A stretch of DNA of 64,000 bases from an uncultured Pirellula sp. (lineage in GTDB: Bacteria; Planctomycetota; Planctomycetia; Pirellulales; Pirellulaceae), in NCBI GenBank assembly GCA_903892355.1, contig CAITIE010000108.1:124001-188000 (forward strand), in the 5' to 3' direction. This document shows positions 1,998 to 57,353 of the stretch, one piece after another. The notes under the pieces are model-generated. The model saw nothing but the letters and a program-made list of their open reading frames with translations, did no database searches and was not told the origin of the DNA. The position numbers and the translations under genes are program-made. Numbering within the stretch: position 1 is the first letter of the stretch; each line of letters opens with the position of its first letter.

Positions 1998-2304
1998 TTC
2001 AGGATTCGGCTTGACGAGAAGGGGTGTTTCGGGACACGTTGTTAGGGCACGCGGGGCAATGACGGCCCGCGTGCTTCCGACATCCTAGGCGACCCAGTCT
2101 GGCATTCGGGATAGAATCAAGTCGCTATCGTATCGATTCGCTATCGTGTCGACTTTGGCGGCGCAGTTGCAGTTTGCGGTGCAGTTGCAGTTTGCGGTGC
2201 GGTGGAGTCATGAGGACTCTGTCGTCCATCACGTAACCTGCAACTTTGCATCTCAATCTATATCCGTAAAAAACAAATCCGCACCATGGCAAGGAGGCCA
2301 AAAC
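1998..2304. other. Intergenic region before the Mur ligase
   Basis: About 300 bases lie between the terminator and the preferred Mur ligase start. The frame is open from GTG 2146, but that stretch encodes a low-complexity repeat (AAQLQFAVQLQFAV) unlike any Mur ligase N-terminus, so I treat it as leader. Apart from the 18-bp duplication at 2163-2198, nothing recognisable is present. Confidence 0.5.
2163..2198. repeat. Perfect 18-bp tandem duplication
   Basis: The unit GCAGTTGCAGTTTGCGGT occurs twice head to tail in the leader of the Mur ligase gene. It is one of many short tandem duplications in this window. Confidence 0.9.
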
Positions 2305-3831
2305 GTGGAATCATCGCTTCGTCCAGTTGTATCGCTCAAAGCCCTGTTTCCCGATGCGCACTTTGTAGGCGCCCCCGATATCCATTGTTCCGCATGCGAC
2401 TCTCATCCTGAGAGCGACCGAACTGATTGGGTGTTTGCCGCGGGAGTTTCCGACTGGACCGCCGCAGATCGCGATGTTGTAGCTGCAATCAACCATGGCG
2501 CTACTGCGATTCTGACCGAGCAGCTTTTGCCGAGCAGTGTCCCTCAATGCATCGTTTCCAATGTTCGGGATGCGTATGCCGAACTGAGTTTAGCCTTGGC
2601 AGGCAATCCCTGTGAAAAGATTCTCACCATCGGTGTGGTGGGGACGCATGGCAAGACCTCTGCATCGTTGATGGTTGCGTCGATGCTCAAGAGGATCGGA
2701 AAAACGGTTGCGTACTTTACCGATCTGGGTGCGAGCAATGGAAAAGAATCTGGGCTACCCTGTGAGTCCAATGCGGATTCGTTGTCGATCGCGGAATGGT
2801 TGCAGCAAAGCGTCGATAATGGGACTCCCGCAGCGGTGATCGAGTTGAGTGACGATATGCTGCGATCGCATGCTGCCTCCGGTTTGGAGTTCGACGTATT
2901 GGTGTTCACCAGCCTGCGGAAATGCCAAAGGAGTGATTCGCTCCAATCGCGAGGCGTGGAAAATGCAATGTCTCGAATGGTCCAGCAGCTCAAGCCGCAC
3001 GGGGTAGTCGTGTACAACGCCGATGACGCGCGACTCAATCGATGGATTGCTCGCCATCAACCCGAAGCGATTAGCTACGGTCTCGATGCAGCAGCGGACG
3101 TATCCGGCCGACGGATGCGCGCCATGAAGGGTGAACAGTCCATCATGGTTTCGGCCGGAAATTGCATTGCCCCGCTCACCAGTACGATTCTCGGGGATCA
3201 CAACGCCCGGCACATGCTTAGCGCCATCGCCGTCGGGTACACCTTTGGACTGGAGTTGTACGAAACGGTCCAAGGAGTCGAACGGCTTCAACGCCTTCCA
3301 GGCAGAATGCAACGAGTACCCGGCGATGGAACTCGCAGCGTGTATGTGGACACCGCCGACCAAGCCGATCGATTGGCGGTTGCTTTGCATTCGTTGTCCA
3401 AGGATGGAACTCCGGTGGTTTGCGTCGCTGAAGTCCCCGATGCAGCAACTCCAGAGCAATTGGCCGCATACGGGCGTGTTTTAGAACGGGCCGCAAGTTT
3501 TGTGATCTTGACCCAATCACGCAGATCGGTGCGGTTCGGGCAAAAATCCGTTTGGCAAGTGCTCGATGGCTGCGAGCGGCCAGCGGCAATTCAAATCGTA
3601 CCCAATCGCGAAGCGGCCATCGAAATGGCAATCCGATCGTCACGAAGTGGCGAGGCTGTTCTGTTAGCAGGTTGGGGCGCCAGTCGCTGGACCACGGATC
3701 GGGATCGACAAGGGGTTTCCGATATCGAAGTTGGTACCAAGTTGCTCCGCGAATTTTGCGAGGAACCTCAACTTCCATCGATCGTGGCCGAGGAACCGAC
3801 CCTCAAGATTTACCGCGGCCGGACAGCGTAA
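2305..3831 (+). CDS. MurE-like Mur ligase family protein
   Basis: An ATP-dependent amide ligase of the Mur family, which joins amino acids to UDP-MurNAc peptides. I choose GTG 2305 (508 residues) because AAGGAGG at 2291-2297 precedes it by 7 bases and the protein then opens with the MurE-style LRPVVSLKALFPDA segment; the GTG at 2146 would add an unrelated repetitive leader. The N-terminal UDP-binding domain covers about residues 1-105. The P-loop GVVGTHGKTSAS lies at about 111-122, and a central ATPase and C-terminal domain (GDHNARHMLSAIAV, then LLAGWGASRW) follow. It is not flanked by division or cell-wall genes, and the N-domain is shorter than in canonical MurE. It may therefore be a paralogue with another substrate (folylpolyglutamate- or MurT-like roles cannot be excluded). 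Confidence 0.8.
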   Translation: MESSLRPVVSLKALFPDAHFVGAPDIHCSACDSHPESDRTDWVFAAGVSDWTAADRDVVAAINHGATAILTEQLLPSSVPQCIVSNVRDAYAELSLALAGNPCEKILTIGVVGTHGKTSASLMVASMLKRIGKTVAYFTDLGASNGKESGLPCESNADSLSIAEWLQQSVDNGTPAAVIELSDDMLRSHAASGLEFDVLVFTSLRKCQRSDSLQSRGVENAMSRMVQQLKPHGVVVYNADDARLNRWIARHQPEAISYGLDAAADVSGRRMRAMKGEQSIMVSAGNCIAPLTSTILGDHNARHMLSAIAVGYTFGLELYETVQGVERLQRLPGRMQRVPGDGTRSVYVDTADQADRLAVALHSLSKDGTPVVCVAEVPDAATPEQLAAYGRVLERAASFVILTQSRRSVRFGQKSVWQVLDGCERPAAIQIVPNREAAIEMAIRSSRSGEAVLLAGWGASRWTTDRDRQGVSDIEVGTKLLREFCEEPQLPSIVAEEPTLKIYRGRTA

Positions 3832-4093
3832 TTGCTCGTCGGGATCTCCGCTGCACAACCGGGGATTCCTGCAAACCGTATGATTTTGGCCCTCGGTTGG
3901 TACTCCGTTATGCTTTTCCGTTTTCGGTTCCGGCTTTCGTCGGACCGATGTCGGGGTTAGAATCCGAACCTCATGACCTTGAGGGTTGTCGTACTGGCGT
4001 AAGGCCGTACGGTAGCTTGGGGGTGAGAGGGGGGCAAAGCGGCGCTCGTTAGACGCCAGCATTCCCACCTGTCCGAGAACGAGATCAGTTCAC

Positions 4094-4166
4094 GGGACCG
4101 TAGCTCAACGGTTAGAGCAGGGGACTCATAATCCCTTGGTTCTCGGTTCGAATCCGGGCGGTCCTA
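4094..4166 (+). tRNA. tRNA with CAU anticodon (probably Ile2; elongator Met possible)
   Basis: A full 73-base cloverleaf. The acceptor is GGGACCG/CGGTCCT, with the G1:U72 end pair a wobble and A73 as discriminator. The D arm contains AGCTCAACGGTTAGAGC. The anticodon stem GGGGA/TCCCT carries the loop CTCATAA, giving anticodon CAT. The T arm is CTCGG-TTCGAAT-CCGGG. CCA is not encoded. The variable region (TTGGTTC) and the overall sequence resemble lysidine-modified tRNA-Ile2 more than elongator tRNA-Met, but CAU alone does not separate Met from Ile2. Confidence 0.92.
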
Positions 4167-55991: not shown

Positions 55992-56926
55992 CAGATGCTT
56001 TGCCTCCTTCGTCTTTGGTTGGAATCGTAGCGTGACTGCGGTTTTCGACGCGCCAGCACTAACTACAAGTTTACCGCAAAAATCCAAACCGTGGCACGCG
56101 GTATTTGCGTGCGGAACATCGCTCGATGGGCCGTCTCATAAACATCGTAGTGGAACCTACTAAGACGCGCCCGGCATTGTGGTGATTTCCGAAACGACGA
56201 ATAGATGCCGAGCCGAGTAGTGGCTCCTGATCAAGGTTCACGCGAAGGCGCAAAGCCGCGAAGAGCAACTCCGGTTTTTACCTAGGTGTTATGAGCGTGG
56301 TTTCTGGAGAGACACCAACGTTCGTCGGATAGGAACCGTATCCATGGATTCCCTAAATCGTCGGATTGGGCTGACGGCCCACTCGGCTTGGTATTGCTCC
56401 AGACTTCGCCTCCGCGATCGACTGAATATTTCTTTTGCCATGCAGGAATGGCGGAAACTACCACTCGAGTTTCAAGGATCGCTGGATACCTTCCCCCCCC
56501 ATTCTTTAGTAACAATAGAAACCGATACCCCTTGCACTGGGCGATTTCCAACCGCGTAGGAGGTGAGATCGCGGAGTTACCCAATGATTGAACGATCGAC
56601 AATCGCCACCGTGATAGTCGCCACCGTGATAGTCGCCACCGTGATAGTCGCCACCGTGATAGTGTTGCTTCGATTTCCGCAACGGACGGCAAGGTGATGC
56701 CTTGCTCTCTGCGAAGTCAGCGAAGGAGTCATTGAGCGAAGTGAGCGGTAACGTTTCAGTAGTGGACTAGGGGTATTGGTATTGAGCGTTTTGGTCCTTC
56801 AGATCCTGAGGCTCGTCAAACCGCATTGAGTCCGCGACCGATCGGCATTCTGGATTCGAGAGATGTCCTCTCGTCACGTGCCGATCACCCCCCCCCCACG
56901 CTCGAAGGTTCGAGCAGGAGAGCATC
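55992..56926. other. About 930 bases without a supportable gene
   Basis: A 15-bp tandem repeat (56604-56663) and a run of ten C at 56888-56897 are visible. Frames of up to about 136 codons exist, but they translate repeats (LSRWR) or compositionally odd sequence, with no ribosome-binding site or family similarity. It may hold decayed genes. Confidence 0.5.
56604..56663. repeat. Perfect 15-bp tandem repeat, four units
   Basis: CGCCACCGTGATAGT four times in apparently non-coding DNA. Confidence 0.94.
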
Positions 56927-57094
56927 ATGCTGCGTTACGCGATCATATTCCTTGTTATAGCATTGCTTGCAAGCATTTTCGGAATGTTTGGGTTATCCGG
57001 AGTTGCGATGCAAGCGGCTCGAATTCTATTTTTCGTCTTCCTCGTCCTGCTGATCGTCTCGGTAATCACTGGACGTCGGGTCACGGAAGCTTAG
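56927..57094 (+). CDS. DUF1328 small membrane protein
   Basis: 55 residues with two hydrophobic segments: MLRYAIIFLVIALLASIFG and AARILFFVFLVLLIVSVI. The pattern (L-R-x-A-I-I-F-L-V-I-A-L, then A-R-I-L-F-F-V-F-L-V-L) is that of the DUF1328/YtjA family. AGGAG lies 6 bases before ATG 56927. These tiny proteins are often stress-induced and sit alone, as here. No mechanism is known. Confidence 0.88.
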   Translation: MLRYAIIFLVIALLASIFGMFGLSGVAMQAARILFFVFLVLLIVSVITGRRVTEA

Positions 57095-57353
57095 AAGCGA
57101 ATCCACCCGAACCATCGCGATGTTCCAATCGCTAAGTCCAATTGTGAGCATGAACGAAATCCTCGCTCGGCAAGAACCGAGCACATCCATGGGCCAAGAG
57201 ATTGCCAATACCGAGAGCCCTGTGATTGGGCTCGCGGTAGCTTTGGCTCGCGGTAGCTTTGATGGTATGCCCCTTGTTGACTAGGCTGGCGAGGAGCTTT
57301 AGTACGATCCGTTATGGGCTTCAGAGCCAGCAGGCATGCTCGGATGGGGATGC
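57095..57353. other. Intergenic region with a 16-bp duplication
   Basis: GGCTCGCGGTAGCTTT occurs twice in tandem (57229-57244, 57245-57260). Nothing else is recognised. Confidence 0.6.

Follow-up and report, generated by a model that had tools for sequence, protein, structure and literature searches.

Head-to-tail duplications of 12–20 bp are concentrated in the genome of an uncultured Pirellula and in its sister

The 64,000-bp stretch of DNA analyzed here (the window), which spans positions 124001-188000 of contig C108 (CAITIE010000108.1) in the genome assembly of an uncultured Pirellula species (6.18 Mb, 158 contigs, 96.9% complete), carries many short tandem duplications. We found that these belong to a narrow size class, 12–20 bp, which is concentrated in this genome and in a sister genome, G005 (∼530 contigs), that arrays differ in length between the two sisters, that coding copies are filtered for reading frame, and that the copies carry extra matching bases at their edges. 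On these grounds we think it probable that a genome-wide process in this Pirellula-like lineage generates head-to-tail duplications of 12–20 bp, mostly 15–17 bp, by slippage or flap misalignment at unrelated sequences. Among the 20 relatives searched, the ArgRS protein of G005 is 98% identical to that of our genome and that of G008 94% identical; DNA divergence from the window is ∼8% for G005 (59 kb aligned) and ∼18% for G008 (44 kb aligned). Planctomycete cytochrome, PSCyt2 and PSD1 domains in the window, together with the ArgRS match of highest identity (64%, from a metagenome-assembled genome labelled Pirellula staleyi, in a collection that may omit records very close to our genome), place it near Pirellula. 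The first-pass annotation, which had listed seventeen duplications in the window, mentioned neither the size class nor its concentration in the two sisters.

The high density of tandem repeats that this annotation had described proved to be real. Tandem Repeats Finder (TRF), run on the window at a minimum score of 30, called 15 of the 17 listed loci, and the remaining two, at 19604 and 48800, were recognized by eye as 15-bp pairs whose copies differ at two positions. A stricter scanner of our own (two copies, at most one to two mismatches, low-complexity filter) returned 13 loci in the window, 12 of them on the list, and no locus occurred in any of 20 first-order Markov sequences of the window. 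The list lacked, among others, pairs at 2122 (16 bp) and 19798 (14 bp) and the Thr-rich repeats called by TRF at 1078-1400.

Densities were counted for units of 12–40 bp, and for units up to 60 bp in a wider survey of labelled loci; loci L072, L084, L091, L098 and L100 stand outside every density group. The window holds 18.8 loci per 100 kb (12 in 64 kb) vs 9.2 in the rest of its genome (56 in 610 kb; 9.1 when masked letters count in the length), and G005 holds 16.7 (62 in 372 kb), or 15.2 with the window homologues excluded (46 in 302 kb). The small samples of G008 and G007 gave 5.7 (3 in 53 kb) and 5.3 (2 in 38 kb), and values were 3.0 in G017 (6 in 200 kb), 2.9 in G002 (3 in 105 kb), 2.8 in G006 (11 in 400 kb) and 0.5 in G018 (1 in 200 kb). 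Sixteen gamma- and betaproteobacterial loci together had 0.6 per 100 kb (2 in 346 kb). In the wider survey, 48 loci, nearly all labelled Planctomycetota, had 2.2 per 100 kb (17 in 767 kb), seven loci labelled Verrucomicrobia or Parachlamydiales had none in 128 kb, and L070, 15.6 kb of a metagenome-assembled genome labelled Pirellula staleyi, also had none. We conclude that the trait is graded and genome-wide, and that among the genomes sampled it is highest in our genome and G005; by extrapolation, each would contain several hundred unrelated loci of two to six copies with a preferred unit length.

This preference is best seen in non-coding DNA (194 kb from the two genomes), as delimited by a simple gene caller of our own that overlooks some genes and shortens others at the start. 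Exact duplications become more frequent from 12 bp, number 12, 9 and 9 at 15, 16 and 17 bp, and are absent at 20 bp; 30 cases at 15–17 bp compare with 3 at 10–11 bp and 1 at 28 bp, and no case lies between 29 and 200 bp. One explanation is that these are ordinary bacterial minisatellites arising at ordinary rates, in a window that was merely picked as dense. Consistent with this idea, density is higher in the window than elsewhere in its genome, G009 and three Streptomyces loci also have fairly high densities, and minisatellite-rich bacteria are already in print (PMC6749651). However, when the window and its homologues are excluded, duplications of 15–17 bp still number 27 in 170 kb of non-coding DNA vs 5 in 440 kb of controls, a 14-fold excess, and vs 3 in 121 kb of three other members of the genus, and the whole class of 12–20 bp numbers 40 vs 22 in the same control DNA. 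With the same exclusions shorter units are not raised, at 38 vs 35 per 100 kb in controls for 6 bp and 14 vs 23 for 7–8 bp. We therefore consider ordinary minisatellites at ordinary rates a rather unlikely account. Our searches of open-licence papers returned none that, by its title and abstract opening, dealt with a 15–17 bp duplication mode in bacteria.

The edges of the copies provide evidence on how they arise. The pooled set from both genomes comprised 130 units, and 68 exact two-copy cases were kept for an edge test, imperfect and near-three-copy cases being dropped. Extra matching bases at the edges averaged 2.56 vs 0.33 by chance, and 53% of the cases had at least two vs 6% by chance, which points to misalignment at short matches and agrees with the slippage-like origin that had been proposed for the window. 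In such a process, a nascent end (or a displaced flap roughly one unit long) would re-anneal during DNA synthesis at a short match one step upstream; the loop would be sealed in to give a duplication, and existing copies could then grow or shrink through the same misalignment.

A cut-and-fill process, in which a nuclease nicks the two strands with a stagger of ∼16 bases and the overhangs are filled and joined (by non-homologous end joining, a casposase or Cas1-like enzyme or another integrase), would account directly for the preferred length, and the 32 of 68 two-copy cases with no or one extra edge base fit it. The majority with two or more extra bases do not, nor is there a common 6-mer among the units. 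Ku (present in 1 of 12 genomes) and Cas1 (5 of 12) were not found in our genome or G005, in a search that did not extend to other nucleases. For these reasons we regard cut-and-fill as unlikely. The lack of a consensus among copies, which the first-pass annotation had also asserted, extends to all 130 units: the best 6-mer occurs in 6 of them, and its p-value of 2.5e-5, with ∼2080 6-mers tested, makes a shared motif unconvincing. Hairpins as the driver were likewise rejected, with stems averaging 4.19 around the units vs 4.43 at random places.

Losses of candidate repair functions were also considered. Mismatch-repair deficiency through loss of MutS is rejected, the MutS N-terminal domain being present in 12 of 12 genomes, ours included (MutL was not searched), and loss of the ExoVII large subunit, of RecJ or of the Pol I 5′-nuclease N-terminal domain is rejected on the same count, each occurring in 12 of 12. 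The acidic motifs that we take to be those of the Pol I 5′ nuclease look intact in G005, one of the three genomes with informative frames (G005, G011 and G013). The gene recJ, which encodes a single-strand exonuclease that affects repeat stability, lies in the window itself (29798-31612, - strand, above the NCBIfam cut-off), and a 26-bp repeat lies ∼350 bp upstream of it. A strong match to a DinB-type polymerase (IMS domain, frames of ∼400–430 aa) is missing in our genome, G005, G008, G007, G011 and G016 and present in G009, G006, G002, G013, G017 and G018; our genome, G005, G007 and G011 have a weak IMS match only, in a frame of 592–642 aa, and G008 has none. The absence of DinB is a lead, but its pattern may simply reflect descent within the clade, and DinB is present in G009, which nevertheless shows 8 loci per 100 kb.

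Arrays change in length between the sisters. Of the 17 listed loci, 13 are spanned in G005. Length is the same in both genomes at five (2163, 19387, 19604, 48800 and 54407) and differs at eight (15205, 16057, 17909, 21630, 22149, 22573, 31958 and 42291), by whole units at five of these and otherwise at three. Repeats lie less than 200 bp from 4 of the 41 contig ends of G005 (1.1 expected) and from none of 33 in our genome (0.5 expected), which bears only indirectly on whether copy number varies within a population. G005 also carries insertions that the window lacks, among them 18 bp at 49879, 54231 and 54737 (72%, 83% and 72% identical to the neighboring sequence) and 15 bp at 10425 (87%). These identities are lower than we would expect had the events followed the split, and would fit error-prone synthesis or an earlier gain that was later lost. 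Around 29 places with repeats or indels, substitutions between the window and G005 are raised within 30 bp, about twofold in coding DNA (0.145 vs 0.070) and 1.6-fold in non-coding DNA (0.159 vs 0.097), an excess to which alignment error beside indels may contribute and which is near background by 61–100 bp.

A duplication process filtered by selection, as the first-pass annotation had put it, is evident from the unit lengths. Coding units are multiples of three in 26 of 27 cases in our genome and 17 of 17 in G005, whereas lengths modulo 3 (0/1/2) are mixed in non-coding DNA (16/10/6 and 11/14/13, respectively) and at stop codons (3/4/1 and 0/2/3). The surplus of multiples of three among the non-coding units of our genome (16 of 32) suggests that some genes were missed. 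Called starts are overlapped by one locus in our genome and two in G005, and for the window the narrower rule that units inside genes are always 15 or 18 bp hinges on where the genes near 2163 and 17909 truly begin. Densities per 100 kb are 25 and 57 in non-coding DNA of our genome and G005, respectively, vs 4.9 and 5.6 in coding DNA. Selection would purge frame-breaking copies in genes, and non-coding and stop-spanning copies would stay, the protein being unchanged.

Four window loci had been described as sitting on a stop codon; those at 10051, 19604 and 41551 do, and that at 31958 is on no called stop. The special link to stop codons drawn from them did not survive. Across the two genomes, 13 duplications overlap stops (8 in our genome and 5 in G005), vs 4.0 expected if they were spread uniformly (2.2 and 1.8), but the excess vanishes at the non-coding rate, which predicts 11.7 (5.6 and 6.1). 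Stops are thus not hot but appear to be unprotected, presumably because the protein still terminates at the first of the two stop copies, and stop-spanning duplications would be about as free as non-coding ones.

Another idea is that the repeats are functional, as selected tandem signals or as variable protein modules (contingency loci). Some arrays, such as those at 42290 and 22149, do lie in repeat-rich or loop-like parts of proteins. However, unit sequences are unrelated, arrays are denser in non-coding DNA, even in-frame units are sparser inside coding DNA than outside it (4.7 vs 12.6 per 100 kb in our genome and 5.6 vs 16.4 in G005), and 8 of 13 comparable loci differ between the sisters, so we consider a functional origin very unlikely. 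An assembly artefact is hardly credible: both assemblies are in many contigs, and the analysis drew on assembled sequence, but an artefact would not preserve frame in 43 of 44 coding units, and five arrays recur in the sister assembly at the same position and with equal length.

Several observations weigh against misalignment as the source of a lineage-specific size class. Plain slippage should favor shorter units, and it would not account for the low counts at 10–11 bp; a steady fall of frequency with unit length, which we took slippage to require, was not found. Some short units are themselves more frequent than the Markov expectation, those of 6, 7 and 9 bp numbering 76, 22 and 8 vs 39.0, 10.8 and 0.8 in the 194 kb. 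Edge matches are not always needed, since 19 of 68 cases had no extra base and 13 had only one, and control planctomycetes also have extra edge matches, although fewer (mean 1.6, n = 21). Of the 31 indels of at least 10 bp between the window and G005, just 8 pass a strict test as clean copies of their neighbor. Indels of 10–60 bp number 23 to 4680 substitutions in this comparison, or 4.9 per 1000, the same as in a pair of Proteus species; the other three control pairs gave 0.3, 0.5 and 3.5, and the window vs G008 gave 22 indels to 7988 substitutions. With four control pairs kept (>4 kb aligned and <19% divergence, from 16 loci paired in all ways), the indel rate is not decisive. Density is highest in our genome and G005, but G009, of the same genus, reaches 8.0 per 100 kb in a small sample (8 in 100 kb) and the three Streptomyces loci reach 6.1 (4 in 65 kb, in the wider survey). 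Finally, no loss of a repair gene was found that explains the trait, unless the missing DinB matters.

It is conceivable, although we put it forward tentatively and as a doubtful proposition, that a process with a built-in length of ∼16 bp duplicates blocks of 12–20 bp throughout the genome by an undescribed step, such as fixed-length flap ligation or a repair activity that removes loops shorter than ∼12 bases. Such a process would have begun or risen once the lineage had separated from most other members of the genus, perhaps together with the loss of canonical DinB.

The individual loci of the window are as follows, with calls by both TRF and the scanner unless noted. The first, an 18-bp unit present 2.1 times (2158-2203; listed as 2163), has equal length in G005 and lies upstream of the called start of a Mur-ligase gene, or in an N-terminal extension of it if a GTG at 2146 is used. 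A 15-bp unit (2.3 copies, 10051-10084) lies where two convergent genes end, 9341-10066 (+) and 10078-11577 (-), and touches both stops; the G005 match splits between two contigs here. A MaoC-like gene (- strand) carries an 18-bp unit in its C-terminal part (5.5 copies, 15202-15303); this array is shorter by 54 bp (3 units) in G005, and its counterpart in G008 is a segment 78 bp shorter with no array visible by eye. The intergenic array of a 14-bp unit (2.6 copies, 16051-16088) is replaced by a different 13-bp array in G005, and a 25-bp unit upstream of a called start on the - strand (2.2 copies, 17903-17958; TRF) is one unit shorter there.

A 15-bp unit in an NAD-dependent epimerase-like gene (2.3 copies, 19384-19423) and the imperfect 15-bp pair that covers the stop of gene 18465-19619 (19604-19633; by eye, no TRF call) both have equal length in G005, the copies of the former having diverged. 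Two repeats lie in an aminotransferase class-III gene: a 15-bp unit (2.2 copies, 21630-21662), 15 bp shorter in G005, and an 18-bp unit (3 copies, 22149-22202; TRF) where the Pfam match ends, with 36 bp (2 units) fewer in G005. Intergenic DNA contains an 18/19-bp unit (5.8 copies, 22572-22680), with 17-bp units in its place in G005, and a 26-bp unit (2.2 copies, 31958-32013), with one unit more in G005, located between recJ and a + strand gene that starts at 32624 or 32765. From the latter start, 32765-37333 (+) encodes a 1522-aa protein with cyclophilin, bacterial Ig and cadherin-like domains and tandem-95 repeats.

A 13/14-bp unit (3 copies, 41544-41584; TRF) lies over the stop of gene 40603-41553 and is not spanned in G005, and an 18-bp unit (6.4 copies, 42290-42407) in a 2030-aa gene (- strand) is 24 bp shorter in G005, where the units are divergent. 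Equal length in G005 is seen for an imperfect 15-bp pair in a VWA-domain gene (48800-48835; by eye) and for an 18-bp unit (2.3 copies, 54403-54447) in a gene of 550/579 aa that has no Pfam or NCBIfam match at E 0.001. The intergenic arrays of a 15-bp unit (4.1 copies, 56598-56664) and a 16-bp unit (2.1 copies, 57226-57261) lack a homologous counterpart in the G005 and G008 loci that were examined; both lie inside a segment of ∼1.2 kb (56128-57364) that is missing from G005, where its flanks adjoin on one contig, and nearly absent from G008. Elsewhere, a 165-bp stretch at 4833-5001 is absent in G005 and partly present in G008, and a TadE-domain protein (601-1923, +) contains the long Thr-rich repeats, which are of a different, low-complexity kind.

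To our knowledge, what sets the length and rate of small tandem duplications in bacteria is poorly defined. Such duplications supply new amino-acid stretches and variable loci, and two sisters with a high rate and a narrow mode, beside relatives with lower rates, offer a natural comparison for finding the responsible gene.

Among known systems, the loci resemble bacterial minisatellites, or variable-number tandem repeats (VNTRs), in having head-to-tail units of ∼10–100 bp and whole-unit differences between relatives. VNTR loci arise by slipped-strand mispairing, and the matches at the copy edges are a further likeness to them; the several hundred unrelated loci extrapolated per genome and the preferred unit length set ours apart. 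Yeast rad27 (FEN1) and E. coli polA mutants, in which flaps are left unprocessed, accumulate short duplications flanked by short direct repeats. Our duplications and their short flanking matches are similar, but the Pol I 5′-nuclease domain is present in all 12 genomes. Substitutions cluster around indels and repeats over hundreds of base pairs in the part of McDonald et al. 2011 consulted (PMC3114760); those near our loci cluster too, but over the shorter distance given above. The survey of Subirana and Messeguer 2019 describes prokaryotic satellites as locally arising tandem arrays with units of 10–200 bp, distributed very unevenly between species, with a minority of bacteria rich in them and Rhodopirellula baltica in the table of richer species at 4.06 per Mb (PMC6749651). 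Arrays of at least four copies number 10 in 610 kb of our genome outside the window (16.4 per Mb) and 7 in 372 kb of G005 (18.8 per Mb), and are also high, in small counts, in G009 (2 in 100 kb) and G017 (2 in 200 kb). Both sisters would rank high in the survey's bacterial table, although the survey applies its own regularity rule, so that rates are roughly comparable, and the parts of it consulted describe no 15–17 bp non-coding mode such as we see here (PMC6749651). We conclude that our genome is that of a minisatellite-rich bacterium, of a known kind and mostly explained, and that its preferred unit length is the part worth following.

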